31,954 nt of DNA, taken from IMG/VR virus record IMGVR_UViG_3300042521_000428, positions 1 through 31,954 of that record; one strand, written 5' to 3'. Position 1 is the first letter of the stretch. Every line of letters starts with the position of its first letter. The notes under the pieces were generated by a model. That model did not search any database and was not told the origin of the DNA. It saw nothing but the letters and a program-made list of their open reading frames with translations. A program made the position numbers and the translations under genes. Of the stretch, positions 11,529-31,954 are shown piece by piece. The stretch is from a virus.

Positions 11529-11560
11529 GTCGGGCATGCATAGCTAACAGGAGTTTGATT

Positions 11561-11758: not shown

Positions 11759-11759
11759 C

Positions 11760-12035: not shown

Positions 12036-12038
12036 TGT

Positions 12039-12533
12039 ATGGAACCGATAACCGGCATTCTCGCGGCAGTATCAGCGGCGAATGCTGCATTTGGGGCCGT
12101 TAAGAAACTCGTCGCCACAGGCCGCGAGATTCAGGACGTTGCCGGTCAGATTGGTAAGTGGTACGGCGCTTTCGGGGACTTCAACCGCCTAGCCAACGAG
12201 AAGGCCAACAAGAAGCCCTCTGTCTTTAAGCGCCTGTTGCACGACGGCAGTATCGAGCAGGAAGCCTTGCAGATCACGATGCACAAGCAGGCGTTGGTCA
12301 AGCAGGAGTACGAACTGAAGTTGTTGATCATCGCTCACTACGGTGAGAACGTGTACAACGAGATGATCATGGAGCGCATCCGACTCAAGAAGGAGCGCGA
12401 GAAGAAAGACCGAGAGCACCGCCTGCGGCAGCAGGAGTTCATGCTCAACGCCAAGTACGGCGCAGCGATTGCCTTCGTGGCAACCGCCCTGATCGCGGTG
12501 GGTTACTACTTAATCGACAAGGCACAGCAATGA
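12039..12533 (+). CDS. Hypothetical membrane protein with long charged helix
   Basis: A 164-residue protein. It starts with an Ala-rich amphipathic or weakly hydrophobic helix (ITGILAAVSAANAAFGAVKK), continues through a basic domain (KKPSVFKRLLHDG), then a long, highly charged helix (about 105-135, with KKEREKKDREHRL), and ends in a clear membrane segment (about 138-158, YGAAIAFVATALIAVGYYLI). Similar proteins occur in other aquatic phages next to lysis genes, but I know of no assigned function. The ATG follows the previous stop after three bases, and the end overlaps the DUF4337 gene as ATGA. A lysis-control or membrane-remodelling role is possible. Confidence 0.6.
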   Translation: MEPITGILAAVSAANAAFGAVKKLVATGREIQDVAGQIGKWYGAFGDFNRLANEKANKKPSVFKRLLHDGSIEQEALQITMHKQALVKQEYELKLLIIAHYGENVYNEMIMERIRLKKEREKKDREHRLRQQEFMLNAKYGAAIAFVATALIAVGYYLIDKAQQ

Positions 12534-14026: not shown

Positions 14027-15862
14027 ATGCCACTCCAGAAAATCCTGTTCAAGCCCGGAGTGAACCGCGAGAACACGCGGTACACGACTGAGGGCGGTTG
14101 GTATGAGTGCGACAAGGTGCGCTTTCGCCAAGGCAATCCCGAGATCATTGGTGGGTGGGAGCGCATTTCTTCTAGCACTTTTCTTGGCTTGTGCCGCTCT
14201 TTGTGGAACTGGGTGACGCTTGGTAACCTGAACCTTGTTGGCGTTGGCACCAACCTGAAGTTCTATATTGAGCGGGGCGGCGCGTATAACGACGTCACCC
14301 CGATTCGCGCTACCACAACACTGCCTGCCAACCCATTTACCGGAAACGGCACCACTACGGTGGTGGTCAACGCGCCTGCTCATGGCGCAAATAACAACGA
14401 CTTCGTGACTTTCAGCGGTGTGACGGGCACCTACGCTACGTTGCTCAACGCCGAGTACCAGATCACCTATATCGACGCAAACTCCTACAGCATCACCACG
14501 GCTTCTGTTGTAGCGGCGGGCACCACGGGCGGCTCGGCAGTCTCGGCTGCATACCAGATCAATACCGGTCCTGCTGTAGTTGTACCACTTAACGGATGGG
14601 GTGCCGGTGGTTGGAGTGAGGGAGCGTGGGGTGTTGGTGGTACGTCTAATACGTCTATCCGACTCTGGAGCCAGAGCAACTGGGGGGAAGACCTGATCTT
14701 TGGTCCACGCGGCGGCGGTGTGTACTACTGGGATGCCACGACGGGCCTGGGTGTGCGCGGCTACAACTTGGCAACCGCTGTCGGTTCGTCCGATGTCCCC
14801 ACGGTGCAGAACACGCTGTTTGTGTCCGATACCAACCGCTTTGTGTTTGCATTCGGCTGCAACGACTACGGCTCCTCAACGCTTGATCCGATGCTGATCC
14901 GGTGGTCGGCACAAGAAGACGCCACCAACTGGACGCCTGCGGCCACCAACCAAGCCGGTAGCATTCGCCTGTCTCACGGGTCTGAGATCGTAACGGTTAT
15001 CCAGGCGCGGCAGGAAATCGTGGCGTTCACGGACTCGTCCATTTACTCGTTGCAGTATTTGGAGCCGCCGGTTGTCTGGGGCAGTCAGCTTCTGGGTGAC
15101 AACATTTCCATCGTGGGGCCGAACGCTGTTGCGATTGCGTCTGGCGTTGTGTACTGGATGGGTGTGGATAAGTTCTACGCCTACGACGGTCGAGTGCAAA
15201 CGCTCAACTGTGATCTGCGGCGCTACATCTTCCAAGACTTCAACCCGTTGCAGTCGGCACAAGTTTTTGCAGGGACAAACGAAGGCTTCAATGAAGTCTG
15301 GTGGTTCTACTGTTCAGCAAATTCAAACGATGCCCGCGTAGACCGCTACGTCATCTACAACTACGTCGAGAAGATTTGGTACTACGGCACGCTAGGACGC
15401 ACGGCGTGGCTTGACTCCGGCTTGCGCGACTATCCGTTTGCGGCGACCTACAGCAACAACCTTGTTAACCACGAGAACGGCCTGAACGACAACGAAACGG
15501 GTACGGCTATCCCAATCGCAGCCAACATCTCTTCGTCGGAGTTCGACATCGGTGATGGCCACAACTTCGGGTTTGTCTGGCGCATACTGCCTGACCTGAC
15601 TTTCAGCAACTCAACGGCCAACACGCCCACCGTCACCATGACGCTGTACGGGCTGTACAACTCGGGCTCAGGTAGTGTTGATAACGCAGGTCAAAACGTC
15701 GTCAAGGGCACCACATACAACATCACCGAAGAGTTCACCGGGCAGATTTACACCCGTGTGCGCGGGCGCCAGATGATTTTCAAGATCAACTCAAACCAAC
15801 TCGACACAGCGTGGCAGTTGGGCGCGCCTCGAATCGATATTCGTCCTGACGGCAGGCGCTGA
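14027..15862 (+). CDS. Putative tail nozzle/tubular protein
   Basis: A 611-residue beta-rich structural protein. It starts MPLQKILFKPGVNRENTRYT, then GGWYECDKVRFRQGNPE, a signature found in aquatic podovirus tail proteins. Trp-rich strands recur in a blade-like way (GWGAGGWSEGAWGVG, NEVWWFYCS, DRYVIYNYVEKIWYYGTLG). The C-terminus (YTRVRGRQMIFKI, then AWQLGAPRIDIRPDGRR) is also typical. By size, composition and place it probably corresponds to the nozzle or tubular protein that extends the tail below the adaptor, though a P22 gp10-like hub is an alternative. It has a weak ribosome binding site (GAG about nine bases upstream). The functional assignment is by analogy. Confidence 0.65.
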   Translation: MPLQKILFKPGVNRENTRYTTEGGWYECDKVRFRQGNPEIIGGWERISSSTFLGLCRSLWNWVTLGNLNLVGVGTNLKFYIERGGAYNDVTPIRATTTLPANPFTGNGTTTVVVNAPAHGANNNDFVTFSGVTGTYATLLNAEYQITYIDANSYSITTASVVAAGTTGGSAVSAAYQINTGPAVVVPLNGWGAGGWSEGAWGVGGTSNTSIRLWSQSNWGEDLIFGPRGGGVYYWDATTGLGVRGYNLATAVGSSDVPTVQNTLFVSDTNRFVFAFGCNDYGSSTLDPMLIRWSAQEDATNWTPAATNQAGSIRLSHGSEIVTVIQARQEIVAFTDSSIYSLQYLEPPVVWGSQLLGDNISIVGPNAVAIASGVVYWMGVDKFYAYDGRVQTLNCDLRRYIFQDFNPLQSAQVFAGTNEGFNEVWWFYCSANSNDARVDRYVIYNYVEKIWYYGTLGRTAWLDSGLRDYPFAATYSNNLVNHENGLNDNETGTAIPIAANISSSEFDIGDGHNFGFVWRILPDLTFSNSTANTPTVTMTLYGLYNSGSGSVDNAGQNVVKGTTYNITEEFTGQIYTRVRGRQMIFKINSNQLDTAWQLGAPRIDIRPDGRR

Positions 15863-15864
15863 CC

Positions 15865-17241
15865 ATGACATTTCTCATCGAAGATGCAACCGTACCTGCG
15901 CCGCCAAACCTACCTCTGGCCCCAACGGCGTACGAGTCGCGGTACCACGAGCAGTTCAACAACGTCCTGCGTCTGTACTTCAACCGCCTTAACGCACTGC
16001 TGAACAAGATCGTGGCTACAACCTCACCCATCCCAGTCTCAATCGGCGGCACCAACGTAGACGCCTTTGGGCGGGTGCGGGTCAGTCAGCCCTACACGCT
16101 CTTTGACTCTCAGCAACGTTACGCTGCAGACAATCAGTTCGACACAAGCACGGTCAACGGCGCATCCACCACATTCCTGAGCAACGAGTCCTCTGTGCTG
16201 ATGTCGGTGGACAGCACCACCAACTCCGAGGCAGTGCGGCAGACGTTCCGCTCCATGTCCTACCAACCGGGCAAGGGCCTGTTGGTGCTTGCCACCTTCG
16301 CCATGAACACGCCCACGGCCAACATCCGGCAGCGTGTGGGGTACTTCAACACCCAGAACGGCGTGTTCTTCCAGGCCAACGGCACCACGCTGTCGATGGT
16401 CATGCGCTCTGACTCTCTGCCCACGCCGGGAACGCCGAGCGATATCCGCACCGTCAACCAAGCCGACTGGAACGGGGACAAGTTAAACGGTACCGGGGCA
16501 TCAGGCTACACGCTTGACGTATCAAAGACGCAGATTTTCTGGTGTGACTTCGAGTGGTTGGGCGTGGGCTCGGTGCGTACTGGGTTCGTGATCAATGGCC
16601 AGTACATCGTCTGCCACACGTTCAACAACGCCAACGACATCAGTTCGGTCTACATGACCACGGCCATTCTGCCGGTGCGCTACGAGATCAAGAACCTGTC
16701 CAACCTCACCACCGCGAGCATGAAGCACATCTGCTCGACGGTCATCTCTGAGGGCGGCTACGAGCAATATTCTCCGAGCCATTTGGCGCGGCGCACGACC
16801 AGACTCAGCAACATCCAACTGACGTTCAAGCCGGTGGTGTCGATCCGTCTGGCGTCTACGGCGCTTGGTGCGGTGGTGCTCCCTGGCCGGATGCAGTTGC
16901 TTCCCATCACGAGCCAAAACTATGAAGTGGGCCTGTTCTTGAACGGAACGCTGACCGGCGCTTCTTGGTCTGCCGTCTCATCTGACGCCAACGTGGAGAT
17001 GGATACCTCTGCCACAGCCATAACGGGCGGCACCCTGGTGCAGACAGACTACGTGTCCTCAAGCGGCTCGGGCGGTACTCAGCCTCTGGTTGATCCGGCG
17101 GGCTATAACTGGGCTTTGCAGTTGGGCGTGTCCTTGGCCGGAGCCAGTGACGTCTTGACGCTTGCCATCCGCACGGTGGATTCTGCAACTCCGCAGGGCG
17201 ACTGCTACGGCACTATCGCTTTCTGGGACTTGACCCAATAA
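15865..17241 (+). CDS. Tail/fibre structural protein
   Basis: A 458-residue beta-rich protein. Its N-terminal 50 residues (MTFLIEDATVPAPPNLPLAP, then a helix YHEQFNNVLRLYFNRLNALL) look like an attachment part also found on other small tail proteins. From about residue 68 comes a block (GRVRVSQPYTLFDSQQRY, NQFDTSTVNGAS) known in phage and large-virus structural proteins, followed by a long beta region (TFRSMSYQPGKGLLVLATF, RVGYFNTQNGVFF) and a jelly-roll-like C-terminal part. The start follows the previous stop after two bases. It may be a tail spike, collar or head-fibre protein; no catalytic residues are evident. Confidence 0.65.
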   Translation: MTFLIEDATVPAPPNLPLAPTAYESRYHEQFNNVLRLYFNRLNALLNKIVATTSPIPVSIGGTNVDAFGRVRVSQPYTLFDSQQRYAADNQFDTSTVNGASTTFLSNESSVLMSVDSTTNSEAVRQTFRSMSYQPGKGLLVLATFAMNTPTANIRQRVGYFNTQNGVFFQANGTTLSMVMRSDSLPTPGTPSDIRTVNQADWNGDKLNGTGASGYTLDVSKTQIFWCDFEWLGVGSVRTGFVINGQYIVCHTFNNANDISSVYMTTAILPVRYEIKNLSNLTTASMKHICSTVISEGGYEQYSPSHLARRTTRLSNIQLTFKPVVSIRLASTALGAVVLPGRMQLLPITSQNYEVGLFLNGTLTGASWSAVSSDANVEMDTSATAITGGTLVQTDYVSSSGSGGTQPLVDPAGYNWALQLGVSLAGASDVLTLAIRTVDSATPQGDCYGTIAFWDLTQ

Positions 17242-17242: not shown

Positions 17243-17275
17243 ATGACTCAAACCATATCCAAGGGGCGCACATGA
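17243..17275 (+). CDS. Possible 10-codon leader reading frame
   Basis: An ATG one base after the previous stop opens a frame coding MTQTISKGRT. Its TGA at 17273-17275 overlaps the ATG of the next gene (ATGA at 17272-17275). The arrangement could let ribosomes pass by re-initiation into the large internal protein gene. It has no clear ribosome binding site of its own and may be chance. Confidence 0.2.
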   Translation: MTQTISKGRT

Positions 17276-19515
17276 GCCTTGCCGTACTAGCCGATCACAT
17301 GGCATCCAAGGGTCGCAACGGCGACACGATGCTGGTGCACATGTCCCCCGAAGAAGTCCAAGGGCTGCATGCACTTGCACTGTCTCAAGGCGGCGCACTG
17401 ACCATCAACCCGGAAACGGGCCTGCCGGAAGCCTTCAGTCTCAAGAGTCTGCTCAAGTCGGTGCTCCCGATGGTGGCGGGCTTCGCGCTTGGCCCCGCCG
17501 GGTTCGGCATCATGAGTTCGCTTGGCGCGGCAGCAACCGTTGGTGGCATCACCGGCTTGGCTACGGGCAGTCTTCAGAAGGGCATCATGGCCGGTCTGGG
17601 CGCTTATGGCGGCTCGGAGCTTGCCGGGGCTTTGGTAGGTGGTAGCAGCGCAGGCGCTACGGCAGCGGCGGGGGATGCCGTTGCTAAATTAAATGCTGCT
17701 GCTGATGCGGGCATGGCGTTTCCTGTAACTAGTGAAGCCGCACAGCAAGCCGCCACTAAAGCCTACGCTGACTTTGCCGCTAAGCCGTTCATGGATCAGG
17801 CAGCGGGCAGCTTTACCGCGCTTAAAAATGCGCCGGGTGGGATGTTCGGTGGCTTGGGTGCGATTGCAAAACCCGCCATGATGGCAGCAGCCCCGATCAT
17901 GGCTGATGCGATGGTGCCTACTGCTACTGGAATGCCCGGTGCAGGTGCAACGCCCTATCCTTTCCGCATCCGCCCGATGGCGTTCAATCAGTATGGCCAG
18001 ACGCTTGAGCAGTTGCCGATGATTTCCGCTACGGGTTATCAGCAACCTCCTGGCGGCGCGAGTGGCGGTATCGTGGCGCTTGCTGCGGGCGGAGCCTCTA
18101 AGCCTTTGTCGCCCGAAGAGTTTAAGCAGATGATCTACGAAGGTGGCGCAGATCACGGAGTTGCCACCCAGCGCGGTCTTGACTACATCACGTCAAAGAC
18201 CAACATGAACCCCACGCAGGCAACAGAGTTCTGGAACAAGGCATTGGGCACCAAGTTCACTGAGGGTGACTACTTCCGCGTCATGAAGGAGTACGACAAA
18301 GACCCGTACTACTACGAGAAGAAGTTCCCAACAACTCCAGGCCCAGTCACGGGTGGCGGTGTTACCTCTGGCACCTCTACGCAAGTGGGTGGCGGACAGC
18401 CTATTGTGGTGTCTCCCATCGGCAAAGAAACAATCCCAGGCTACAAAGGCGAAGACAAAATCTACGGTGGTGATATCACCATTCCGAAGTATGTCGCGCC
18501 TGATTTGGGAACCCCCGGCAAAGCCACACAGACTGGCGAAACGATTGCCGATATCCGCAAGGAGTACAAGGGCACGGTTGAGATGCCCACCCTTAAAGAC
18601 TTCAAACCCACGGTCACGGGCGGCAGCAAGGCTGCTTATGACTACCTAATGGGTCAGGGTGCATACCCGCTCAATCCGGTCATTCCCGGCGGTGGCCCCA
18701 TCATGAAGCCCTATGCCGAGTCGGTTGGCATGGTGCAGCCTGGGTTCTATGGACGGCAAGGTACGTTTGACGACGCGGGCGGCTTTACGCCTACGCCTCG
18801 CGTGGCCCCCGGCTCTGGTGGAACGGAACAGGCTGGTGGTACAACGGGTGGCACAACGGGTGGCACAGGTATTGTGTACGGGCCGAACGGCGCTCCTTAC
18901 GCCAATGCTGCCGCAGCCATTGCTGCGGGCGTCAGAAACTACAGCTTCAATCCGCCTTTTTCAACCACCAACACCTCTGGTACCGGCACGCCTATTACCG
19001 ACTTCCTCTTTGGTACGCAGGATGCAAGCAAGGTGCCCGTTGAGGACCGCACCATAAATCGCCTGCCCGAGCGTCAGGTTGATGTCAGTACGTACGACCC
19101 CGCCGCTTATGACTACGATGTCGGCAGCGGTGATCAATACACCGAAGACGAAAAGGCGATGATGGCCGGTATGCGCAGAGGCGGTCTTGCCGATGTCGCT
19201 GCTGCCGGTGCAGCACGCGGTGGCCAATTCAATCTGGGCGGTTACTCCGATGGCGGGCGCTTGCTTCGCGGCCCCGGTGACGGCGTATCTGACAGCATCC
19301 CCGCTACGATTGGAAACCGTCAACCCGCGCGGCTTGCCGATGGTGAGTTTGTGATTCCGGCAAGGATTGTTTCTGAGATCGGCAACGGCTCAACTGAGGC
19401 CGGAGCACGTAAGCTCTACGCAATGATGGATCGTGTGCAACGCGCACGCGCTAAAACAACTGGTAAGGGCAAGGTGGCTAAGAACACCCGCGCCGACAAG
19501 TACCTGCCCGCATAA
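17272..19515 (+). CDS. Internal virion protein (Ala/Gly-rich, membrane-active N-terminus)
   Basis: A 747-residue protein, first of four large internal-protein genes. Residues 1-55 (MSLAVLADHMASKGRNGDTM, then VHMSPEEVQGLHALAL) are a conserved start in aquatic phages. A hydrophobic Gly/Ala stretch at about 62-125 (VLPMVAGFALGPAGFGIMSS and onward) could insert in a membrane during DNA ejection. The middle is Gly/Pro/Thr-rich and probably disordered. The last 100 residues hold another conserved block (GGRLLRGPGDGVSDSIPATI, then ARLADGEFVIPARIV and LYAMMDRVQRAR). An AAGGGG site is five bases before the ATG. A role in the ejection apparatus is inferred from position, composition and the hydrophobic segment. 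Confidence 0.7.
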   Translation: MSLAVLADHMASKGRNGDTMLVHMSPEEVQGLHALALSQGGALTINPETGLPEAFSLKSLLKSVLPMVAGFALGPAGFGIMSSLGAAATVGGITGLATGSLQKGIMAGLGAYGGSELAGALVGGSSAGATAAAGDAVAKLNAAADAGMAFPVTSEAAQQAATKAYADFAAKPFMDQAAGSFTALKNAPGGMFGGLGAIAKPAMMAAAPIMADAMVPTATGMPGAGATPYPFRIRPMAFNQYGQTLEQLPMISATGYQQPPGGASGGIVALAAGGASKPLSPEEFKQMIYEGGADHGVATQRGLDYITSKTNMNPTQATEFWNKALGTKFTEGDYFRVMKEYDKDPYYYEKKFPTTPGPVTGGGVTSGTSTQVGGGQPIVVSPIGKETIPGYKGEDKIYGGDITIPKYVAPDLGTPGKATQTGETIADIRKEYKGTVEMPTLKDFKPTVTGGSKAAYDYLMGQGAYPLNPVIPGGGPIMKPYAESVGMVQPGFYGRQGTFDDAGGFTPTPRVAPGSGGTEQAGGTTGGTTGGTGIVYGPNGAPYANAAAAIAAGVRNYSFNPPFSTTNTSGTGTPITDFLFGTQDASKVPVEDRTINRLPERQVDVSTYDPAAYDYDVGSGDQYTEDEKAMMAGMRRGGLADVAAAGAARGGQFNLGGYSDGGRLLRGPGDGVSDSIPATIGNRQPARLADGEFVIPARIVSEIGNGSTEAGARKLYAMMDRVQRARAKTTGKGKVAKNTRADKYLPA

Positions 19516-19524: not shown

Positions 19525-21681
19525 ATGGCTACTGCCCCTACCCCAACGCAAGTTACCCAGTACCAGACCGGGTTTGCCCCGCAGATCGCCCCCTACGCCG
19601 AGCGCATGCTCGGCGCGATGGAAGGCAGCGTCTTCCAGTATGAGCGGGACGCGCAGGGCAACATCGTCATGGACGCCTCTGGGATGCCCAAGATCAAGGG
19701 CTTCCAACCGTACCAACAGTACCAAGGCGAACGTGTTGCTCAGTTCTCTCCGCTGCAACAGCAAGCGATGGCGCAGGCCGGTATCTTGGCTCCGGCAGGT
19801 CAACTTGCAGACGCCTCTGGTATCGCCGGTCTGGCCGCACAACGCGCACTGGGCTACGGTTATACCCCCGGGCAAGCAACCAATCAGTTTGTTGCGCCTG
19901 AGCAGTTTCAGCCGTCGTCGTTTGAGCGTCCGGGCGTCAGTACCCGCGACCTCACCCGTTATGAGATGGGTCCGGTTAAGGATGTCGGCTACCGCGAACT
20001 CACGGCTCCGCAGATGCAGGCGGCGCAAACAACGTACGCGCCGGAGGTGCGGGCTGCTGAGATGCAAGCCTCACTTGCCGCTGCTGCACCCACGGTTACT
20101 GCTGAGCGAATCCAAGCCGCCAAGGTTGAGGGCGCACCGTCTGCCATCGAGTCTCGCGCTATTCAAGCCGCGCAAAGCCAGTATCGGCCTGACTTGCAGA
20201 CCTTCCAGATGGGGCCGTACGAGCGCGTGCAGGCCGGATCGTTTGTTGGTCCGCAGACCGCGTCCATGTATATGTCGCCGTACATGCAGAACGTGTTGGA
20301 CATCCAGCAGCGTGAAGCAACCCGGCAGGCTGACATTGCCCGCGAGAGCCGCAGTGCTCGATACGCCAAGGCAGGCGCGTTTGGTGGTGCGCGGCAAGCG
20401 ATTGAAGAAGCTGAGGCCGCACGCAACCTGGGCACGCTCAAGAGCGACATTCAAGCCAAGGGCTTGCAGTCTGCGTACGAGATGGCGCAACAGCAGTTCA
20501 ACGCTGAGCAACAGGCCAAACTCGCTGCGGCACAGGCCAATCAACAGGCCGGTCTGACCACGGGCATTCAGAACCTTGCCGCTGCGCTTGGGGTGCAGCA
20601 GTTGGGCGCTGGCCAGAAGTTGCAGGTTGAGATGGCTAACCTGACCAACGAGCAGCAGTCTCGGGTGCAGAACGAAGCCAATCGCCTACAGGCGCAGGGC
20701 ATGACGGCGCAGAACGCCATGCAAGTGGCACTGGCCAATCATCAGGCGCAGCAGCAGTCGAACGTGCAGAATGCAGCCAACGCTCTTCAGGCGTCTGGCA
20801 TGTCTGCACAGATGGCACAGCAGACGGCACTCGCCAATCAGCAAGCGCAGCAGCAGGCTGCTTTGCAGAACCAACAAGCACAGATGCAAGCCCAACAGTT
20901 GGGTGTGCAGACGGGTCTGCAAACATCGCTTGCCAACCTCAACGCTGCTCAACAGGCCGCAGTGCAGAACCAAGCTGCACAACTGCAAGCGCAGGGCATG
21001 ACGGCACAGCAGGCGATGCAGGCTGCATTGGCGAATCAGCAAGCAGGGTTGACCATCGGTCAGCAAAACCTGGGTGCCGCGCTGGGCACGCAGCAACTGG
21101 GCGCTCAGCAAGACCTCCAAGCGCAACTGGCGAACCAACAGGCAGCGATGAATGCACAGCAGTTGGCTGAGCAGTCTAAGCAGTTTGGGTTCGGTCAAGC
21201 CATGCAGGCCGCAGGACTGGGCGCTCAGTACGGTCAGGCCGCACAGCAACTCAACGAGCAGTCAGCCCAGTTTGGCGCAGGTTTAGGTCTACAGGGTTTG
21301 CAGACGGCGATGACAGGTGCTCAACAGTTGGGCAACTTGGGTCAGGCGCAGTTTGGTCAGCAGTTGGCTGCAACAAACCTTCAGAGTCAGTTGGGCACGC
21401 AGCAACAGCAGCAGGCTCAGAACATTCTGAACAACCAGTACCAAGATTTCCTGAACTACCAGAACCAACCGTACAAGCAACTGGGCTTCATGTCTGACAT
21501 CCTGCGCGGATCACCTTTGTCGCAAACCGGCGCGGCTATTTATCAGCAACCACCCTCAATGCTTGGTCAAGTTGCGGGCGCTGGTATTGCGGCTAGAGGA
21601 CTTGGCTTATTTGCGGGTGGGGGGATGGTTGGCCGTCCTGCTGGCCTGAATGAGTTGGCTATCTATAACATGGGTCGTTGA
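19525..21681 (+). CDS. Internal virion protein with Gln/Ala helical repeats
   Basis: A 718-residue protein. Residues 1-90 start MATAPTPTQVTQYQTGFAPQ with a conserved FSPLQQQAMAQAG. At about residues 250-305 lies a block widespread in phage internal proteins (DIQQREATRQADIARESRSA, then KAGAFGGARQAIEEAEAARN). From about 330 to 620 it is a long Gln/Ala/Leu/Asn repeat (LQAQGMTAQNAMQVALANHQ and variants), probably a long helical rod or bundle. It ends with a hydrophobic Gly part and the tail GLFAGGGMVGRPAGLNELAI. No enzyme motif is seen. It may form part of the tube or core by which DNA leaves the head, comparable in role to T7 internal core proteins; this is inference. Confidence 0.7.
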   Translation: MATAPTPTQVTQYQTGFAPQIAPYAERMLGAMEGSVFQYERDAQGNIVMDASGMPKIKGFQPYQQYQGERVAQFSPLQQQAMAQAGILAPAGQLADASGIAGLAAQRALGYGYTPGQATNQFVAPEQFQPSSFERPGVSTRDLTRYEMGPVKDVGYRELTAPQMQAAQTTYAPEVRAAEMQASLAAAAPTVTAERIQAAKVEGAPSAIESRAIQAAQSQYRPDLQTFQMGPYERVQAGSFVGPQTASMYMSPYMQNVLDIQQREATRQADIARESRSARYAKAGAFGGARQAIEEAEAARNLGTLKSDIQAKGLQSAYEMAQQQFNAEQQAKLAAAQANQQAGLTTGIQNLAAALGVQQLGAGQKLQVEMANLTNEQQSRVQNEANRLQAQGMTAQNAMQVALANHQAQQQSNVQNAANALQASGMSAQMAQQTALANQQAQQQAALQNQQAQMQAQQLGVQTGLQTSLANLNAAQQAAVQNQAAQLQAQGMTAQQAMQAALANQQAGLTIGQQNLGAALGTQQLGAQQDLQAQLANQQAAMNAQQLAEQSKQFGFGQAMQAAGLGAQYGQAAQQLNEQSAQFGAGLGLQGLQTAMTGAQQLGNLGQAQFGQQLAATNLQSQLGTQQQQQAQNILNNQYQDFLNYQNQPYKQLGFMSDILRGSPLSQTGAAIYQQPPSMLGQVAGAGIAARGLGLFAGGGMVGRPAGLNELAIYNMGR
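20515..21420 (+). repeat. Gln/Ala-coding repeat region
   Basis: The DNA is a run of imperfect repeats rich in CAG, CAA, GCA and AAC codons. A 17-base unit GCGCAGGGCATGACGGC occurs at 20692-20708 and again at 20989-21005, and shorter pieces such as GCCAATCAGCAAGC recur. The frame is kept throughout, so length changes by recombination between repeats would lengthen or shorten the helical part of the protein. Confidence 0.7.
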
Positions 21682-21683
21682 TC

Positions 21684-23774
21684 ATGCTGAACGTCAATCA
21701 ACTCACTGAGCAACTGCGCATGATGCCGGATCAGGCACTGCAACGCATGGCGCAGATGTACAAGAATGACCCATATATCTTGCCGATGGTCATCTCTGAG
21801 GACACTTCGCGCAAAAAGATGCGCCAAGCTGCGCAAGCTCAGATGGCACAGCCTCAGCCCAAGGTGGTCGATAAAGCGCTTGCTGCGATGGGTACCCCTC
21901 CGCAGCCCGCACCGGGCATCGCCGGGTTGCAGGCACCCAACATGGAGGGCATGGCTGACGGCGGGATTGCAGGCTACGCCGAAGGTGGTGTAGCCGATAG
22001 CGCAGAGGACTCGTTCTCTCGCGGCGGCATGTTTGACTTCACTCAGCGCAGTGAGCCTGTCGTGCGCATGGCCGATGGTGGGGTGGCGCGGTACCAAAAG
22101 GGCGGGGACGTTAAGTCTCGCTTTGTCGAGCAGTACCGCGACGTGGCAGAAAAGGTCGGCACTGAGCTTGGCGTTGATCCTGACATCATCCTGTCTCAGT
22201 GGGGCCTTGAGTCTGGCTGGGGCACCAAGACGATTGGTCAATACAACCTGGGCAACATCAAGGACGTGACCGGCAAGGGCAAAAAAGCCTTTGACAAATT
22301 GGAAGGCAGCGAAGCTGCCTACAAGAGTTACAAGTCGCCTGAAGATTTTGCGCGGGACTACACGAGCTTGGTTAAGCGCAACTTCCCCAACGCTGTCGGC
22401 GCAGGTCGCGATCTTGGCGCATTCACAGAAGGTTTGTCTTCTGGCAGGATTGGCACGTACGCCACTGACCCGGACTATGGCAAGAAGTTGGCCGCTACGC
22501 TCACCAGTTTGGTTCCCGTTGGATCGGCCCAGGCTGCACAGGCGGCTTCTGCACAAGCGGTTTCCGGTGCGCAAATCCCTGGCCAAGCGGTTCAGGCGCC
22601 GCCTGCCGTGCCCGAAGGCTTCTTTAGCCGGATGGGCTCCAGTCTCGGTATGTCCGAGGAAACCAAGCGTAACCTTGGCAACATCCTGATGGCACCCACG
22701 CCTATGGCAGCGGTGACCGCTCCGGGCAAAGCAGCAGGCGAAGCCTCTGGTATTCAGCGGCTGTACGAAGGCACGCGTCGATTCTTTGGCTCGCCGTCTG
22801 CTGCACGCACGCTCACGCCGGAAGAGATTCAGGCTATGCAAGTTGCCGCTGCCGCTGGTAGGAATACCAAAGCCGCAGAAGACGCCGCAGAGGCTGCGCG
22901 TATGGCAGGCGCCATGTCTGGTGAAGCGCAAACGGTTTCGCAGGCAGTTATGGCAGAGCGTCTTGCCGAGCAAGCAGCCAAGGCCCCGTCAGCGGCTGAG
23001 CGCATTCAGCTTCTTCAGCAGGCAGAACGTGCGCGGGAAGCTGCCCGGGCAGCTACTGTGGCGTCGCCGAGGGTTGCTGCGGCGCAAACCGCCAAGAACC
23101 TTACCGCTGCTGCGGTTGCAAGCGAAGGTGAATCCGGGCGTACAGCGCTGCCCACGATGCTTGAGCAGGCCAGTTACAGCAACGAAGGCCGGAATTACCC
23201 CGCACCCATCAAGCGCGAAGACTTGCCCAAGGACGTCAAGAAAGAAGCGATTGCTACCGCCAAGGAAGAGCTTCCCAAGAAAGACCGCAAAGGGTTTACG
23301 AACGACGACTTGATTGAAATCGGCCTGCGCATGATGGCTGATCCGGGCCGAAGCGGAGAAGGGTTTGCCGGGTTTTTGGGTTCTGCAGGACGCGCGGGTC
23401 TTGGTGCTCTGGCCGCACGCAAGGAGCGCGAGAAGGTCGAGCGCGAGGAAGCCAAGGCGTTGTCTGAAGAGAAATACCGTGCGGCTCTCACGCGCGAAGC
23501 CGAGGGCAAGGCGTCGATGTACGAGGAAGGTACCCGAGGCAAGACTGCTGCACTGCAGCAAGCCAACGTGGCGTTTGCCAACTGGGAGAAGGGTCTGTCG
23601 GCCCTGCAGAAGTTGGAGATGACCGAGGAACAGCGCAAGGCTAAGTACGACGAAATTTTGCGGCAGACCTTTGCGGCGCTTGGCCTGGAAGCCCCTGGTG
23701 GAGTATCATCTAAACCCACCGGGGCGTCCGTTGATACAACCGGGTTTAGAGTTTTGGGGGTACGTAACCCCTAA
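21684..23774 (+). CDS. Internal virion protein with glucosaminidase (FlgJ-like) domain
   Basis: A 696-residue protein. The N-terminus (MLNVNQLTEQLRMMPDQALQ) is followed by a flexible Gly-rich part with repeated ADGG motifs (about 90-140). A peptidoglycan-cleaving domain of the glucosaminidase type lies at about 144-260: VDPDIILSQWGLESGWGTK with the probable catalytic E176, then QYNLGNIKD, AAYKSYKSPEDFARDYTSLV and GTYATDPDYGKKLA. It would open the cell wall locally during DNA entry. The rest is Ala/Glu-rich and helical, with a Gly-rich hydrophobic spot near 565. The start is ATG at 21684; a TTG two codons earlier overlaps the previous stop and is less likely. The ribosome binding site is weak. 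Confidence 0.8.
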   Translation: MLNVNQLTEQLRMMPDQALQRMAQMYKNDPYILPMVISEDTSRKKMRQAAQAQMAQPQPKVVDKALAAMGTPPQPAPGIAGLQAPNMEGMADGGIAGYAEGGVADSAEDSFSRGGMFDFTQRSEPVVRMADGGVARYQKGGDVKSRFVEQYRDVAEKVGTELGVDPDIILSQWGLESGWGTKTIGQYNLGNIKDVTGKGKKAFDKLEGSEAAYKSYKSPEDFARDYTSLVKRNFPNAVGAGRDLGAFTEGLSSGRIGTYATDPDYGKKLAATLTSLVPVGSAQAAQAASAQAVSGAQIPGQAVQAPPAVPEGFFSRMGSSLGMSEETKRNLGNILMAPTPMAAVTAPGKAAGEASGIQRLYEGTRRFFGSPSAARTLTPEEIQAMQVAAAAGRNTKAAEDAAEAARMAGAMSGEAQTVSQAVMAERLAEQAAKAPSAAERIQLLQQAERAREAARAATVASPRVAAAQTAKNLTAAAVASEGESGRTALPTMLEQASYSNEGRNYPAPIKREDLPKDVKKEAIATAKEELPKKDRKGFTNDDLIEIGLRMMADPGRSGEGFAGFLGSAGRAGLGALAARKEREKVEREEAKALSEEKYRAALTREAEGKASMYEEGTRGKTAALQQANVAFANWEKGLSALQKLEMTEEQRKAKYDEILRQTFAALGLEAPGGVSSKPTGASVDTTGFRVLGVRNP

Positions 23775-23792: not shown

Positions 23793-26700
23793 ATGCCCAT
23801 TTACAGCGTACAAGGCCCGGACGGGAGAATTTACGATGTGGAGGGGCCAGCAGGCGCTTCCGAAGAACAGATCATTGCTGTAGTCAAGCAGCAGATCGCG
23901 CAGCAGCCCAAGCCCTCAGAAGGCGTTCTTGCCGCTGTCGGCAAAGGTGCAGAGTCTGCACTGAGCGCCTTGCGCGCAGGTGTCAAAGGCGTCGTCGCCC
24001 CCGAGGAGGCGGCAAGAGAAGCGCGTCTTCGGGAAGAAGACATTCAGCGCCGCTACGCTGAGCAGGTCAGCCTTGACCGGGTCAAGAAAGCCTACCAAGA
24101 GCGCGGCCTGCTGCCCGCTGCCGGAGAGGTCATTAGCCAAGTGCCTTATGCCTTGGCTGAGCAGGCGCCCAATATCGCCACCACGCTCGCAAGCGCGCGC
24201 CTGGGTGCTATGGCCGGTGCACCGTTTGGTGTCCCGGGGGCTATTGTTGGCGGTATTGCCGGTGCTGTTGCGCCATCGTTCTTCCAACAGGCTGGAGGGA
24301 ACATTCAGCGCCAAGCCGCTGAGGGCCAACCCATCAGCCGTGCTGCTGCCTATGGTGCAGCCGCTCCGCAAGCCGCCCTGGACGTCGCTGCTACCTTTGT
24401 TCCGCTAGGCCGCACTCTGGCCGGTAAGGCGCTGGGCCCCGGTGTTGCCAAGATGCTGGAGAAAGGCGCTGAAGAAGGCGCTGAAAAGCTCGCCAAAGAG
24501 ACGCTGCTCAAGACGCTGACCAAGGGCACGGCGGTTGGCGCACTGGCCGAAATCCCCACCGAAGTCACGCAGCAGATGCTGGAGCGTGTGCAGGCAGGAC
24601 TGCCGCTGCTCAGCGAAGACGCGCTCAAGGAGTATGGTGAGACGGCGTACCAGACCAGTCTGCTTGCGCCTATCGGTGCTGCCGGTCGTGTGGCCGAGCG
24701 CGGTGCAGCCCGTGAGCGGGTCGAGGTCAGGGAAGAACTTGAGCGTGGCAAGGCGCTGAAAGAGCAGCGCGAGCAGGAGCGTCTGGCCGAAGAAAAGGCT
24801 GCGGCGGAGAAGCAGACCCCTGAGTACGCGATCAACTTCATGCAGCAGCATGACGCGCTGCAGAAAGAGTACAACGACCTTGGCGACCTGCTCAAGCAGA
24901 AGCTGCCTCCCGGCGCTTCGTTTGCTGAGAAGCAAACCTATGAGGCCCAGAAGAAGCGCCGCAACGAACTGGCGACGCAACTGAAGGAACAGGCGCCCGA
25001 GTACAACCGAGTTAAGTCGCTTGTGCCCCCGGCACCGCCGAAGCCGCCTGAACTGACCGACGAACAAAAGCGTATTGCTGCGCTCAGCCCTCTGGAATAC
25101 CAGATGGAGCAGGCCGGTGTTGACCTTACGTCCCCCCTCGCACAACAGCGGGTGTTTACGGGCGAAGAAGACTTCGGGCTACCCCCCTCACCGGCATTGA
25201 CGTACGCACAGTCGCGCATCAATCTTGCAAACGAACAGGCGTACGTAGACTCAAGAGAAGCCAATGAGCGCCCTGCGTTCTATGTGGCCTACCTGATGCA
25301 AGACCCGGCTATGGCGAAGGCGCTTGTAGAAGCGAACGAGCCAATTCCCGGTCTTAAGAAGCGTGAGAGCAACGCAATTCTTGGTGGGTTGAAGCTGCAA
25401 CTCGACGCACTTGAAGAGCAGAAGAAGGCTGACGAGGCAGAACGCCAAGAGAAAGCGGCTGCACGCACGGCACAACAAGAACAAGCTCGCTTGGCTTTTG
25501 AGGCCAGCACTGCCCCGCAGCAAGACGTTGCGGGCTTCCAGCGCAGCATGGGCGATGTTGTCCCCCGTCCTGAGTTTGCGCTGCCAAAGGAAGCCGAAGA
25601 CCTCATCGATAGGATGATGGCAGCGACGGAGCCTGCGCAGCAGAACCGCGTGATGGCCAGTCTGACGCAGCAGCTTTCAATGGCTCCGGCCACCATGCGC
25701 TACGACCGCGCGACGGCACTCCTGCGCGATGTGCAGGAGAAGGCCAAGACTGCTGAAGGCGACGAGAAGGTTCGCCTTGAGCGCCGCGCCGATCAGCTTC
25801 AGCGTGCACAGAACGCGCTTGGCAAAGAGGTCAACCGCAGGCTGTTCGACATCACCACCGATCTCGGGGAGCAGGGGCTTGTCCCGCGCAACGTCCTCAA
25901 GCCCACGGGCGAAGCCCGCCGCGCCAAGGGCGAGTTCCGTCTGTTTGGTGAGGCTGAGCCTGCTGCGCGTGAAGTTACCCGCGAAGACCTGCAAGAGCGC
26001 CTCACCCGGGCGATGGCCAGTAACAAACTGTCGGACGAGGCGTACGAGTTCCTGAGCCGGATGGAGCGTTCGCTCCCTGAGAAAGACCGTGAGGTTGCAG
26101 AACTAGAGCAGGTTCCCGGCGCGTTCAAACCGGGCGTTACATACACGACTGGTGCCACTACGCCAGGATATGTAATTGCCAAAAGCGGGGAAGAAGCAAA
26201 GATTTCCTATCCTGCGCGCTTGGAAGACGGCAGCGAAGTTACGGTAGAGATCATTCGCCCTGTTGACGAACAAAGAAACATTAAGCCTGACGTGGCTGAT
26301 GTGCGTGTGCGGCAAGGTAAAGAACTTCCCCTGGTAAATCTTGGTAAGCAAGGAAAACAAACCGACGAGCAGATTCTCAAAATGCTCGTAGATATTGAGC
26401 AGATTGCAAACGTAACCCGTCCGAAAAAGATAACACCTGAAGGTGAAGCAGCCGCGCCTACACGCAGCCTTTTCCGCCTGCTTGATGAACAGCTTCGTCG
26501 TATTGAAAGCGGCGAAGAGGGCATGGCGCGTCCTGGCGCAGGTCGCAAGACTACGTTGCAGGCATTCCCTGCTGAGGGCCGCGCGGACGTGGCCGCTACT
26601 GAAAGTGCTACGGCAGAAGACATCATAAAGCAGGCGCTGTATCAGCAGAAGGTCAACGCAGGCATGAAGCCCGAGCAGGCGCGTGCTGAGTCTTTTGCTG

Positions 26701-29700
26701 ACTTTGAAGAAGGCCGAGTGCCCGAGAACTTGCGCAAAATGGCGCAGGCCAAGGCTGCAGTAACCAAGCGTCCCGCACGTGACTTTACGCCCACTCGCGT
26801 TGAGGGCGATCAACTTGTTCCCGGCACTCTTCGCGGCCCCAGCACCAAGGCGCTGCCGCTGTCTCTCCAGGCCGAGCTTGAGCCGTTTGTGGAGCAGGCC
26901 GAGCGTGGACGCGAAGGTGAGATGGGGCAGACGAGCTTGTTCCCCGAAGAGCAGGCCAAGATCGTCACCGAGCGCGCTACCCCTGGTCGGTTCCAGCGAT
27001 TTCTCGACAGCGCAGAGGCTGATCGTCTGCGCAAACAGTTTGAACCCGACGCTAAGAAGTTGGGGCGGGCGCGTAATCAGCTTGACGAACTGAACGAGAA
27101 GATTGCCAAGCTCAACGCGGTCATTGCCGATATTGAAGCCGTGCGGGCAGAGATGCTGCCTGCCACGCAGATTCGGGCGCTCAAGAAAGAATTGAGTGCG
27201 CTTGAGTCCCTTGAGATTCCTGAGACGGCTACAGTTTCAGGAACGACGGGTATCACCGACCGCATCGCTGCAATCCGCGAGTACTTGAAAGTTGCCGAGG
27301 AGCAGCAGGCAAAACTGCGTGCAGCCGAGAAACAGTTTGGCAGCGCCGGACTTGACCCCGATTCGCTGCGCAGAGAACTGGCTAACGTGCAGGAAAACTT
27401 TGGCAGCGTGCTGACCGCAGTGGCGCGCCAGGGTGAACTGGGTGCCGCGCTTGTCGAACTCAAGATTCCGCGCAATCAAGCGTCGGACTTCATCGACAAG
27501 TTCAACATCTCTGACAAAGACAAGTCGCTGCTCAAGGAGCAGCTTGTTGCGGAAGAGGGCAAGACCGCTGTCGGCAAACACATCAACGCGCTGACCCAAC
27601 AGTTCGACGCAATTGGTGCGGCACTGGCGCGTGTTGACGCAATAGCGCGTTTGACCAACGCCGAACTCAAAGCCTATCAGTACGAAAGCCAGGAAGCGGT
27701 GGATCGCGCTGCGCTTGCCGCAGCCAAAAAAGAACTGCGTTCTGCCCAAGCGGCGGCATCCAAGCTGACCAAAGAGATTGGCTCCATCGAGGGGCGTACA
27801 GCCGCGCAAGAGGCGGCGGCGCGGCGCGCAGCAAACGCCGCCGACAGAGCCAAAGCCGATCTCAAGCGCACCGAAGGCTACCTTGCGCAGCAAGCTGCGC
27901 TTGAGCGTCAGCAGAAAGCGCCGGAGGGTGTGGATCGGTTTGGTCAGCCCCTGCGATCAATGGCGTACGACCCCATTACCGACGCACAGCGCGCGGCACG
28001 GGATGACGACACGCCCACTATCTTGGCCGACGAGATGCGGCAGGTGCGGGGCAATCCGCAGCAAGTGCTCAAGGGCTATCGCGCCTACATCACCACGATC
28101 ACCAAGGCGTTGAAGGAAGCCTACGACAAGGCTCGTGCGCAGACCGTTGAAGGAGTAAAGGAGCGAGCGCCCTACGAAGCTGCGTTGCGTGCATATAGTG
28201 CGGCTAAGACGTCACAGGCTCGCGCCAACTTGATGCCTATTGTTAATGCACTAGAGAAGGCATACAACGACGCGGTCACCAACGCGCTTAACGCCCGGGT
28301 AATGCCCAAGGGTCTGGTTGGCTATCAAGCAGCACTGTCTGAGATGCTGCGTCGTGAGGCGTGGCTGAAGGGGCTGGTTGATCGTGGCGAAGTAGAAGTC
28401 GCTGAGCCGCCCAAGCCGCGCAAGCGCAAGACCGAAGCCGAACTCAAGGAAATTCAGGACGTCCTGAATCAGAAAGAACTTGCCGAGGCTGCGGCACGTG
28501 AAGGCGCGCCCAAGCTGGATATCACCGCCACAACTAAGTCGGAGATTGAGAAGGAGCGCAAGCCCAAGGGCACGCGCTACAGCAGCAAGGGCGTGGGGCA
28601 AGAAACGGCAATAACGACAGAGGCCGCGCGGATTAAGCGGGAAAAGCAGGCGCTTCTGAAGAAAACGCCAACTGCCAAAGAGAAGGCTCGACTTGCCGAA
28701 CTCACCCTTGTTGAGCAGGCTCGCGACAAGCAAGAGCGCAAGGAGCCGCTGACTGAACTGGAGCAGATGCTGCTGACGGATTACCGTCGCAGCCGCAAGC
28801 CCACCAAAGAAAGCGAAGTCGAGCGTCAGCGCCGCGAAGAAGAGGGCGAAGAAGAACTCACCAGTGAAGAACTGGCAGAGAAGGCGCTTGAGCAGGAGCG
28901 CGCTGAGTTTGACGCTGAAGAAGTTGCGGACACCGGCATTCTGAAAACCGGAACCGAAGACCTCGACGCACTGTTTGATAAACCTGACACGCTGCAGCAA
29001 CTGGCTGCGACTGCGTCGCAAGGGCCTGCGCTGAAAGAAGATGTTGATAGCGAGAAGAGCGCAGCGGTCGTTGCAGCTAACGTGGCAGATACGGGCAGCA
29101 CCGAGATTGCCCGCGCTGTTGCAGACCGACTGAAGCTGCTCCTGGGCAACACCCGCGTCGAAATCGTCAAAGACCTGCGTGACCCGGATGGGCAGGCAGC
29201 ATACGGTCAGGCTGCGGCTGACGGTTCCTTCATCCGCCTGGATGCCAAGTACGGTCTGAACGAGCGCACGTTCATCCACGAAGGCGTCCACGCTGCCACC
29301 GAGCGCGTCATCCAGATGCCGGAAGACCAGCTTACGGATGACCAGCGCCGCGCCAAGCGGGAACTGGAAGAACTCTTCGAGGCGTATAAGAAGTTACGCG
29401 GTGCGACAAACGCGAACGCCAAAACATCTTTGAGTGAGTTTGCGTCTGAGGCGCTGTCTGACGACGTGATGCAGGCAGAGATGCGGCAGCAGAAGTGGAC
29501 GCTGCGCCACATGTGGGACTCGTTCAAGAGCGCACTGCTGCGACTGCTCGGCATCAAGACGCCGGAGAACATGCTCGAAGCCACGTTGGCTGCGGTTGAT
29601 AACCTGATGACGAAGGTGCCGCGTCCGACCCAGGCTGACAACGCGCTGTTGGCGCCGAAGATGCTCAATCGTCCGCGCAACCTGAACCCGGCCCTGGCCG

Positions 29701-31954
29701 AGGCGGATGCGTTCGGGCGCAGCATCGTTGCGGGCAACCAATCTTGGTGGCAACCCATCCGCGCCAAGTCCAGCGGTCTGGCGATGGAGACGGGTCTGGT
29801 AGATCGTTTTGCCGGGTTCGAGCGGCTGTCCAAATACATGGACAAGCTCAAGGGTACGCAGATGATGTACTACCTGCGCATGTACGACCAGCGCATGAAC
29901 TTCACGGCGCAGTCTGTGGCCAACGGCGCACTGGACGTCCGCGAAGTCCAGCGTAGGGATGGTGAGCGCGAGTTTATTGTCGAGAGCCAGACTGGCCCCA
30001 GCCTGCGGCAGGTGGCAACTACGCTTAAGGGTGCAGCACGCCTTGTCGGCGATGTCGATGCTACGAGCCGTCTGTTCACCCTGTATCTGGCCGCAAAGCG
30101 CGCTGAGCGTGTGGGCTTCGACAAGCTCGACCTGCGCGACCCCAAGATCACTGAGCAGAAGCTGCGGGATACCGTGGCTCAGGTTAGGTCTGTCGAGGGG
30201 CTGCAGGACATCTTCGACAACGCTCGGGATATCTACAACCAGTACAACGAGAACCTCGTGCGCTTCGCCCAAAAGGCGGGCGTGTTGAGCAAGAAAGACG
30301 CAGACGCACTGCTTGCATCCAAGGACTACATTCCCTGGTACCGCGAGCGCAACGGCGTTGCTGAACTGGCGCTTGGTGGGCTGACTCCGATCAAGCTGGG
30401 CAACGTCAAGGACATGCCGCACCTGCAGGAGTTGGTGGGCGGCGATAAGCCGATCCTCGACTTCATGATCAGTTCGGTGCAGAACACCAATATGATGGTG
30501 GACTTGGCGCTGCGCAATCTGGCCACTCGCAACGCGATGTTCGAGTTGCTTGATCTGGGCATGGCCAAGATCACATCCAAGCCTGTTGACGGCCCGGAGG
30601 TTGTGCGGTTCAAGCACAACGGCGAAGACCGCTACGCGGTTCTTGAAACCGATACTGTTGAAGTCGGCGGTAAGAAGGTCAACACGGGCGTCAACGCGGA
30701 CATCCTGGTCAAAGGCATGGAGGGCATCCCGCTCCAGACCACGGGCATCCTGCGCGCCGTTACGATTCCGACGCAGTTGCTGCGCCGCGCTGTGACACTG
30801 AACCCGCTGTACATGGTGCGTCAGTTGATGCGTGACTCACTGGCCGCTTCGATTGCGTCTGGTGCTGACTTCCCGCCCGTGCTGGGCGCGCTCCGTGAGA
30901 TTGAGAGTTCTGCCAAGGGCACGCTTGAGCGGCGCGGCATCACCGGTGGGCAGATGTTCACGGGCACGCAGGAAGACCTGAGCAAGATCATGCGTGATCT
31001 TGTCGGGGGCCGGTCAGCCCTTACCAAGACCCTCGGCGCGCTGGAGTGGGCGGGTATGGAAGCTGACGCTTTGACCCGCCGCGCTCAGTACAACAGCTAC
31101 ATCAAGCAGGGCATGTCCGAGATGGAGGCCACGCTGCTCTCGCTGGAGTCGATGAACTTCAACAAGCGCGGCGCGTCGCCCAGTGTCCACATGGCGAACT
31201 CCTTGTACCCGTTCTTCAACGCGCAGGTGCAGGGCCTGAACGTGCTGTACCGGGCTATGTTCGGCCAGATTACGGCAGGCGAGCGTGCTCGGATCAAGGC
31301 TAAGCTCATCACGCGCGGCGCCATGCTGATGGCGGCTACCCTGGCCTACGCCCACGCAATGCAGGACGACGAGGCATACAAGAACGCACTGCCTGCTGAG
31401 AAGTACGGCAATTGGTTCATCCGCCTTCCCGGCGTGTCGGAGCCCCTGCGCATTCCGATCCCGTTTGAAATCGGCTACATCTTTAAGGCGTTGCCCGAGG
31501 CGCTCTACAACACCATCGTCAACGAGCGTGGCGGGGAGCAAGCCAAGGAGGCACTGCTCGGCATCTTGCGAAACACCATCCCTGGCGGCTCTGCTTACTT
31601 CATCCCGCAAGCCATGAAGCCCGCCATCGAGGTAATGACCAACTACTCGATGTTTACCGAGCGCCCGCTGCTGTCGGCCAAGGAGCAGGCACTGCTGCCG
31701 GAGTATCAGTACCGCGAGAAGACGACCGAACTGGCCAAGCTCTTCGGTGGTGCGGCGGGCGTCAGCCCCATCAAACTGGAGGCGCTCATCAGCGGCTACT
31801 TCAGCACGATGGGTATGGCGCTGCTGCAGGCGGCAAGCCTGCCGATTCCCACAAAGGACACGCCGGAGAAGGCCACCAAGCGCCTGTCCGACATGCCGGT
31901 GGTTGGCAGCGCCTTCCAGCCCAACGATGCCCGGTGGGTCATCAACAGCACCTA
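23793..31954 (+). CDS. Giant internal virion polyvalent protein, HExxH motif and LPD38-type C-terminus (partial)
   Basis: An open frame of at least 2,720 codons that runs off the window; the last two bases, TA, could begin a stop. Residues 1-40 (MPIYSVQGPDGRIYDVEGPA) are a short module seen at the start of other phage virion proteins. A Gly/Ala hydrophobic stretch at about 130-165 may insert in membranes. About 300-1650 is mostly charged helix and coiled coil, for example near 1086-1120 and 1306-1375. HEGVH at 1829-1833 fits a zinc metallopeptidase site. About 2050-2720 matches the LPD38 type of polyvalent proteins: LNPLYMVRQLMRDSLAASIA, FNKRGASPSVHM with FFNAQVQGLNVLYRAM, and the NYSMFTERPLLSAKEQ block. 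It probably enters the host with the DNA. AGGAAG lies seven bases before the ATG. Confidence 0.8.
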   Translation, partial: MPIYSVQGPDGRIYDVEGPAGASEEQIIAVVKQQIAQQPKPSEGVLAAVGKGAESALSALRAGVKGVVAPEEAAREARLREEDIQRRYAEQVSLDRVKKAYQERGLLPAAGEVISQVPYALAEQAPNIATTLASARLGAMAGAPFGVPGAIVGGIAGAVAPSFFQQAGGNIQRQAAEGQPISRAAAYGAAAPQAALDVAATFVPLGRTLAGKALGPGVAKMLEKGAEEGAEKLAKETLLKTLTKGTAVGALAEIPTEVTQQMLERVQAGLPLLSEDALKEYGETAYQTSLLAPIGAAGRVAERGAARERVEVREELERGKALKEQREQERLAEEKAAAEKQTPEYAINFMQQHDALQKEYNDLGDLLKQKLPPGASFAEKQTYEAQKKRRNELATQLKEQAPEYNRVKSLVPPAPPKPPELTDEQKRIAALSPLEYQMEQAGVDLTSPLAQQRVFTGEEDFGLPPSPALTYAQSRINLANEQAYVDSREANERPAFYVAYLMQDPAMAKALVEANEPIPGLKKRESNAILGGLKLQLDALEEQKKADEAERQEKAAARTAQQEQARLAFEASTAPQQDVAGFQRSMGDVVPRPEFALPKEAEDLIDRMMAATEPAQQNRVMASLTQQLSMAPATMRYDRATALLRDVQEKAKTAEGDEKVRLERRADQLQRAQNALGKEVNRRLFDITTDLGEQGLVPRNVLKPTGEARRAKGEFRLFGEAEPAAREVTREDLQERLTRAMASNKLSDEAYEFLSRMERSLPEKDREVAELEQVPGAFKPGVTYTTGATTPGYVIAKSGEEAKISYPARLEDGSEVTVEIIRPVDEQRNIKPDVADVRVRQGKELPLVNLGKQGKQTDEQILKMLVDIEQIANVTRPKKITPEGEAAAPTRSLFRLLDEQLRRIESGEEGMARPGAGRKTTLQAFPAEGRADVAATESATAEDIIKQALYQQKVNAGMKPEQARAESFADFEEGRVPENLRKMAQAKAAVTKRPARDFTPTRVEGDQLVPGTLRGPSTKALPLSLQAELEPFVEQAERGREGEMGQTSLFPEEQAKIVTERATPGRFQRFLDSAEADRLRKQFEPDAKKLGRARNQLDELNEKIAKLNAVIADIEAVRAEMLPATQIRALKKELSALESLEIPETATVSGTTGITDRIAAIREYLKVAEEQQAKLRAAEKQFGSAGLDPDSLRRELANVQENFGSVLTAVARQGELGAALVELKIPRNQASDFIDKFNISDKDKSLLKEQLVAEEGKTAVGKHINALTQQFDAIGAALARVDAIARLTNAELKAYQYESQEAVDRAALAAAKKELRSAQAAASKLTKEIGSIEGRTAAQEAAARRAANAADRAKADLKRTEGYLAQQAALERQQKAPEGVDRFGQPLRSMAYDPITDAQRAARDDDTPTILADEMRQVRGNPQQVLKGYRAYITTITKALKEAYDKARAQTVEGVKERAPYEAALRAYSAAKTSQARANLMPIVNALEKAYNDAVTNALNARVMPKGLVGYQAALSEMLRREAWLKGLVDRGEVEVAEPPKPRKRKTEAELKEIQDVLNQKELAEAAAREGAPKLDITATTKSEIEKERKPKGTRYSSKGVGQETAITTEAARIKREKQALLKKTPTAKEKARLAELTLVEQARDKQERKEPLTELEQMLLTDYRRSRKPTKESEVERQRREEEGEEELTSEELAEKALEQERAEFDAEEVADTGILKTGTEDLDALFDKPDTLQQLAATASQGPALKEDVDSEKSAAVVAANVADTGSTEIARAVADRLKLLLGNTRVEIVKDLRDPDGQAAYGQAAADGSFIRLDAKYGLNERTFIHEGVHAATERVIQMPEDQLTDDQRRAKRELEELFEAYKKLRGATNANAKTSLSEFASEALSDDVMQAEMRQQKWTLRHMWDSFKSALLRLLGIKTPENMLEATLAAVDNLMTKVPRPTQADNALLAPKMLNRPRNLNPALAEADAFGRSIVAGNQSWWQPIRAKSSGLAMETGLVDRFAGFERLSKYMDKLKGTQMMYYLRMYDQRMNFTAQSVANGALDVREVQRRDGEREFIVESQTGPSLRQVATTLKGAARLVGDVDATSRLFTLYLAAKRAERVGFDKLDLRDPKITEQKLRDTVAQVRSVEGLQDIFDNARDIYNQYNENLVRFAQKAGVLSKKDADALLASKDYIPWYRERNGVAELALGGLTPIKLGNVKDMPHLQELVGGDKPILDFMISSVQNTNMMVDLALRNLATRNAMFELLDLGMAKITSKPVDGPEVVRFKHNGEDRYAVLETDTVEVGGKKVNTGVNADILVKGMEGIPLQTTGILRAVTIPTQLLRRAVTLNPLYMVRQLMRDSLAASIASGADFPPVLGALREIESSAKGTLERRGITGGQMFTGTQEDLSKIMRDLVGGRSALTKTLGALEWAGMEADALTRRAQYNSYIKQGMSEMEATLLSLESMNFNKRGASPSVHMANSLYPFFNAQVQGLNVLYRAMFGQITAGERARIKAKLITRGAMLMAATLAYAHAMQDDEAYKNALPAEKYGNWFIRLPGVSEPLRIPIPFEIGYIFKALPEALYNTIVNERGGEQAKEALLGILRNTIPGGSAYFIPQAMKPAIEVMTNYSMFTERPLLSAKEQALLPEYQYREKTTELAKLFGGAAGVSPIKLEALISGYFSTMGMALLQAASLPIPTKDTPEKATKRLSDMPVVGSAFQPNDARWVINST

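Follow-up and report, generated by a model that had tools for sequence, protein, structure and literature searches.

Proteins ejected with phage DNA act ahead of any phage gene expression. In a survey of polyvalent proteins, Iyer et al. (2017, PMC5512222) identified zincin-like metallopeptidases (MPTases) as the commonest polyvalent-protein domain, so that a peptidase in a giant of this kind is not unexpected. These domains occur in HExxH and HExxxH versions whose last helix carries a Glu, and were proposed either to process the proteins they belong to or to act on host proteins. The same work lists LPD38 as a phage-type domain, describes the MPTase region of phage N4 as required for encapsidation of the virion RNA polymerase (vRNAP), which is packaged unprocessed, and points to Alt of phage T4, an ADP-ribosyltransferase (ART) that modifies host RNA polymerase (PMC5512222). 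The HExxH of N4 vRNAP has been noted as well (PMC12633501). Two further systems are relevant here. Mass spectrometry of virions detected JC1 gp69, a giant with a C-terminal LPD38 (PMC9144972), and residues 268-528 of the PhiM1 ejection protein gp48 have been published as endolysin/exotransglycosidase-like (PMC11440229).

In this context, we analyzed a giant protein encoded on IMG/VR record IMGVR_UViG_3300042521_000428, whose 31,954 bases constitute the whole window, that is, the stretch of DNA under study. The original prediction described a single frame filling the last quarter of the window, and such a frame is indeed found on the + strand from 23,793 to 31,954 (codons 23,793 to 31,952), open for 2,720 codons up to the contig end, where its 3' end is lost. 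As this last gene is cut, the record is probably a fragment. The prediction had also advised obtaining the rest of the gene, and the complete ORF was found in five relatives at 97% identity, where it comprises 2,826 or 2,858 codons; about 106 residues are thus absent from the window protein. From residue 2001 on (29,793 to 31,954, + strand) the giant consists of a C-terminal core with a mean column identity of 63% over 32 homologues, likewise cut at the contig end. Inside this core lies the LPD38 domain that had been predicted for the C-terminus (PF18857, residues 2526-2704; 31,368 to 31,904, + strand), matched by Pfam with an E value of 6e-32 and 111.6 bits against a curated cut-off of 27. 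Over the whole giant, Pfam and PHROGs returned significant E values for LPD38 and one PHROG of unknown function only, and the Pfam scan recognized no RNA polymerase. A proposed membrane-active stretch corresponds to one hydrophobic Gly/Ala-rich segment, found by hydropathy at residues ~137-165 (24,201 to 24,287, + strand), which is possibly membrane-active.

The N-terminal module, residues 1-38, had been taken for one seen on phage virion proteins. A search of 50,697 phage records at E 0.01 returned nothing for it, so that it was rejected as a general virion tag; the only proteins in which it was detected are homologues of the giant, one of them with a split gene. In contig L035 (~2,736 to 12,357) the giant gene appears as two ORFs, one of 504 codons with the N-terminal module and one of 2,724 codons with the rest, an arrangement that reflects a real split, a frameshift or an assembly error. 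The core profile has no matches in the PDB, its AlphaFold2 model reaches a mean pLDDT of 63.5, and the Foldseek matches of this model are meaningless. Neither profile comparison nor AlphaFold2 combined with Foldseek revealed homology of the core to the C2 part of N4 or to the tetrameric ejection proteins. Relatives of the core are common in viral contigs, but pattern scans covering 84,980 species genomes of bacteria and archaea yielded none; provided that the pattern scan is sensitive enough, the phages bearing the core are probably virulent, with hosts unsampled.

The giant sits among virion genes, as ejectosome proteins do, and shares its strand with an SU10-type adaptor, virion structural proteins and an endolysin. 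Two virion structural proteins (phrog_3287 and phrog_1645; 14,027 to 17,241, + strand) provide a late-gene context. Directly upstream of the giant, a 698-residue protein (phrog_3513, E 3e-24; 21,678 to 23,774, + strand) carries an endolysin-like (peptidoglycan hydrolase) domain at residues 146-278 and is a probable ejection partner. Judged by its gene families, the neighbourhood is what would be expected in a short-tailed phage around proteins that are internal or ejected. The proteins at 17,272-19,515, 19,525-21,681 and 21,678-23,774 share short Gly-rich patches (such as GGIVALAAGG and GGIAGYAEGG), and the first of them ends with a GPGDGVSDSIPATI...LADGEFVIPA segment. Elsewhere in the window, a 443-residue protein with beta-propeller repeats (SBBP; 5,279-6,610) and a 685-residue protein with three lectin-like laminin-G stretches (7,003-9,060) are probably surface or tail proteins.

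Alignment, AlphaFold2, PDB profile matches and Foldseek together delineate a zincin-type metallopeptidase domain at residues ~1757-1939 (29,061 to 29,609, + strand). The HEGVH motif is present where it had been reported, at residues 1829-1833 (29,277 to 29,291, + strand), and would supply the catalytic Glu as well as two of the predicted zinc ligands. It is the sole HExxH of the giant, in which 0.003 would be expected from composition and which contains only nine His. To collect homologues, six peptides, all chosen outside the domain, were scanned against 2.9 million viral contigs, yielding 77 loci. The resulting zincin alignment comprises 26 different HExxH sequences, the most distant of them only 13% identical to the window version, and is too diverged for a pattern search of the collection. 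Only six of its columns are invariant (Leu, His, Glu, His, Glu, Phe), the motif's own residues among them, and the Glu-Phe pair lies 49-50 residues past the second His. This is the pattern of a Glu-zincin built on His1829, Glu1830, His1833 and Glu1882. The last of these, in SEFASEAL (29,436 to 29,438, + strand), is the predicted third zinc ligand, and it is invariant both in the 26 homologues and in four relatives of solved structure.

The AlphaFold2 model of the domain agrees with this assignment, with a mean pLDDT of 81.5 and values above 90 around the motif. One helix and three strands are joined by the HExxH helix and, later in the chain, by a helix bearing the third ligand, so the zincin core, with its single helix, three strands and pair of C-terminal helices, is present. 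In model numbering, HExxH falls in helix 91-108 and Glu1882 in helix 147-156; the third metal ligand that the original prediction had left to structure modelling is thus placed on a later helix.

Comparison with solved structures connects the domain to ejection proteins. The zincin profile matches 9sfn (internal virion protein, E 6e-15), 8vb2 (PhiM1 tetrameric ejection protein gp48, E 1e-9), 23sg (gp10, E 5e-9) and 11fw (virion RNA polymerase, E 3e-6), and in each of them the H, E, H and distal Glu positions align; we found no paper naming 9SFN, 23SG or 11FW. Foldseek against the PDB places N4 vRNAP on top with a probability of 1.00 and a TMq of 0.51, at an E value of only 0.058. Against viral models it gives 22 matches at E 0.001, including internal core proteins, structural proteins, vRNAPs and crAss-like proteins. 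Taken together, these data make us highly confident that HEGVH marks a genuine zincin domain. The interpretation offered with the original prediction accordingly stands for the metallopeptidase-type domain, the LPD38 C-terminus, the virion neighbourhood and the kinship with ejection proteins, and is unsupported for an N-terminal module general to virion proteins.

The closest described systems each share part of this architecture. With the polyvalent MPTases (PMC5512222) the window domain has in common the HExxH/HExxxH motifs, the Glu on a later helix, the three strands, the LPD38 partner and the location in a phage giant near virion genes. Unlike them, it lies outside PF18818 (MPTase-PolyVal), which remained unmatched in 19 records at E 10, and is assigned here at the level of the superfamily, above that of the 12 published clades. 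The C1 domain of N4 gp50 vRNAP (PMC12633501; PDB 9pnt) and 11fw represent the same domain type by profile and fold, in a giant ejected protein that, like the window giant, continues in a long C-terminal part after the zincin; the window giant differs from gp50 in showing neither a recognizable RNA polymerase nor detectable homology of its core to C2. PhiM1 gp48 (8VB2, PMC11440229) and 9SFN have a zincin in which H, E, H and Glu align, with ~750 residues beyond it, as proteins of about half the size of the window giant or less in which the core has no sequence match. Residues 381-516 of gp48 are probably a zincin, given that both HExxH and the distal Glu are matched there by the profile. JC1 gp69, from the Bcep22-like podoviruses (PMC9144972), resembles the window giant in its C-terminal LPD38 and in being encoded last in the block of virion genes, but has 4,515 residues and lytic-transglycosylase-like, methylase- and helicase-like domains not seen in the window giant.

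A lack of HExxH in homologues had been named as the outcome that would speak against the site. Instead, all 72 homologues that are complete in the slot region keep a zincin motif upstream of the conserved core, 31 as HExxH and 41 as HExxxH in or just upstream of the slot. At least 72 motifs are thus observed, against a chance expectation of about 1 over all homologues together. The notion that half of the homologues have no peptidase was rejected, as these carry HExxxH, some of them further upstream behind an ART-like insert. The HExxxH proteins split into three sequence classes (HE..GHFG, HE..GHYGVD and HEVGxHxG), and a Glu in an E-hydrophobic-x-A context follows the motif in 71 of the 72, the exception (L041) reading REILA and being missed by the pattern. 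Between classes the zincin region falls to chance-level identity in most pairs, against 53-75% identity in the core. Profile comparison of class with class ranges from fair (E ~1e-5, probability 74-81) to none, so that a distant relationship is possible for some classes, whereas sequence gives no link between others.

Additional modules enter the same region. In 18 proteins, several hundred residues are inserted between the HEVGxH zincin and the core. Of 12 records tested, five match the ART-PolyVal model weakly and below its cut-off (best E 2e-5), which makes an ADP-ribosyltransferase likely, not certain. The window giant combines zincin and LPD38, to which homologues add this weakly matching ART-like module. 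The module can also be substituted: L040 and its sister L029 have cores that are 92% identical, and L040 carries an HExxH zincin at the position of the ART-like module of L029, keeping its HEVGxH zincin beside it. The two motifs of unlike class in L040 (1,230-10,379) are HEVGAH at residue ~1600 and HELTH at ~2050.

Eight cultured phages have LPD38 proteins with the same core, at full-sequence E values between 3e-29 and 2e-79. In the protein of Planktothrix phage Pag-Yong1 an HExxH zincin occupies the same position (E 2e-11), four other proteins have HExxxH, and a Vibrio phage contributes one with two motifs of the HExxH or HExxxH type. No zincin motif is seen in the two shortest, from Pelagibacter phage HTVC204P and Bacillus phage Page; the zincin is therefore universal in the clade of the window as sampled, not in all LPD38 proteins. 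In three phage records (H1, H4 and H7) the LPD38 giants are annotated as RelA/SpoT, N-6 adenine-specific DNA methylase and putative portal, names that are either erroneous or taken from different regions of these proteins.

How the classes are distributed over the core tree shows that the slot has been refilled repeatedly. By approximate counts, as the tree is quick and unrooted, its class changes at least 16 times, against a mean of 35.6 for shuffled labels, and 12 changes separate HExxH from HExxxH; the starred branches alone require 10 changes for HExxH. Class differs even between cores that are 91-96% identical (L044/L045, L042/L035 and L069/L062). The last pair is 76% identical up to residues 1106/1535, unlike over the zincin, and 85% identical again from 1240/1746, which reads as a clean cassette exchange. 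Chimeric assembly might affect any single contig, but is not a plausible source of the 16 changes, as the contigs come from many separate metagenomes. In the limited literature searched, we found no description of one orthologous slot that keeps a zincin and repeatedly changes its class. This kind of domain has been known since 2017 (PMC5512222); the repeated class exchange at one slot of a conserved orthologue, in which the giant also differs from the polyvalent MPTases, is new here.

These observations can be combined into a possible mechanism. By analogy with its kin, the giant LPD38 polyvalent protein would be packed into the head of a short-tailed phage, from which it would enter the host along with the DNA at ejection. 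Following the chemistry of the superfamily, residues ~1757-1939 would fold as a Glu-type zincin that holds zinc on His1829, His1833 and Glu1882, activates water through Glu1830 and cleaves proteins once ejected. The slot preceding the core would be a cassette site at which zincin classes are exchanged and ART-like modules added or substituted, and exchanged cassettes would fit a delivered effector acting on host proteins at takeover better than a fixed housekeeping enzyme. That the giant is a metallopeptidase delivered at infection as an effector on host proteins is a reading to which we give about even weight. As a target, host proteins appear somewhat more likely than the giant itself: sequences diverge outside the active site, cassettes are swapped, and in L040 an HExxH zincin occupies the position of an ART-like module.

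Cleavage within the giant is a tentative alternative, in which the zincin cuts its own protein or the ejection partners, most likely after ejection, and frees the core and any effector modules. Such a role has been proposed for polyvalent-protein MPTases by Iyer et al. (PMC5512222) and is favoured by the one zincin always kept in 72 of 72 homologues, amid other modules that are gained and lost; yet the unprocessed packaging of N4 vRNAP (PMC5512222) means that cutting before packaging is not general. A fixed cut site also sits awkwardly with unlike classes on nearly identical cores, unless the exchanged cassettes carried their own cut sites, and the position of the L040 HExxH zincin, that of its sister's ART-like module, speaks against it as well. 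We consider it unlikely that the zincin fold serves as an ejectosome building block or a packaging need with its catalysis unused. The N4 encapsidation requirement (PMC5512222) and the presence of the matching region in the assembled PhiM1 ejectosome (8VB2, PMC11440229) would suit such a role, but the HExxH class is invariant almost solely at catalytic residues, and unlike classes replace one another where a purely structural part would conserve its surfaces. Finally, the idea that HExxH arose by chance in a coiled coil, with no underlying domain, has only the large size of the protein in its favour and can practically be dismissed given the chance expectations for the giant and its homologues, the zincin fold model and the PDB profile matches.

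Returning to the delivered effector on host proteins, the slot may be obligate but interchangeable: a zincin would have to be delivered, and, as hosts come to resist each of them, the HExxH and the three HExxxH classes would be replaced by one another, or a zincin would be set where a sister phage has an ART-like module. We regard this extension as possible but less likely than not; if it is true, host targets would differ from class to class. The zincin profile further suggests that the PhiM1 ejectosome domain read as exotransglycosidase-like is itself a zincin. The zincin is the commonest domain of ejected proteins. The interest of this lineage lies in its natural cassette swaps, which make the target of a delivered zincin directly testable. 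Its members are natural experiments, with unlike peptidase cassettes on cores that are up to 96% identical, and a comparison of substrates across these cassettes would discriminate directly between cleavage of self and cleavage of the host.
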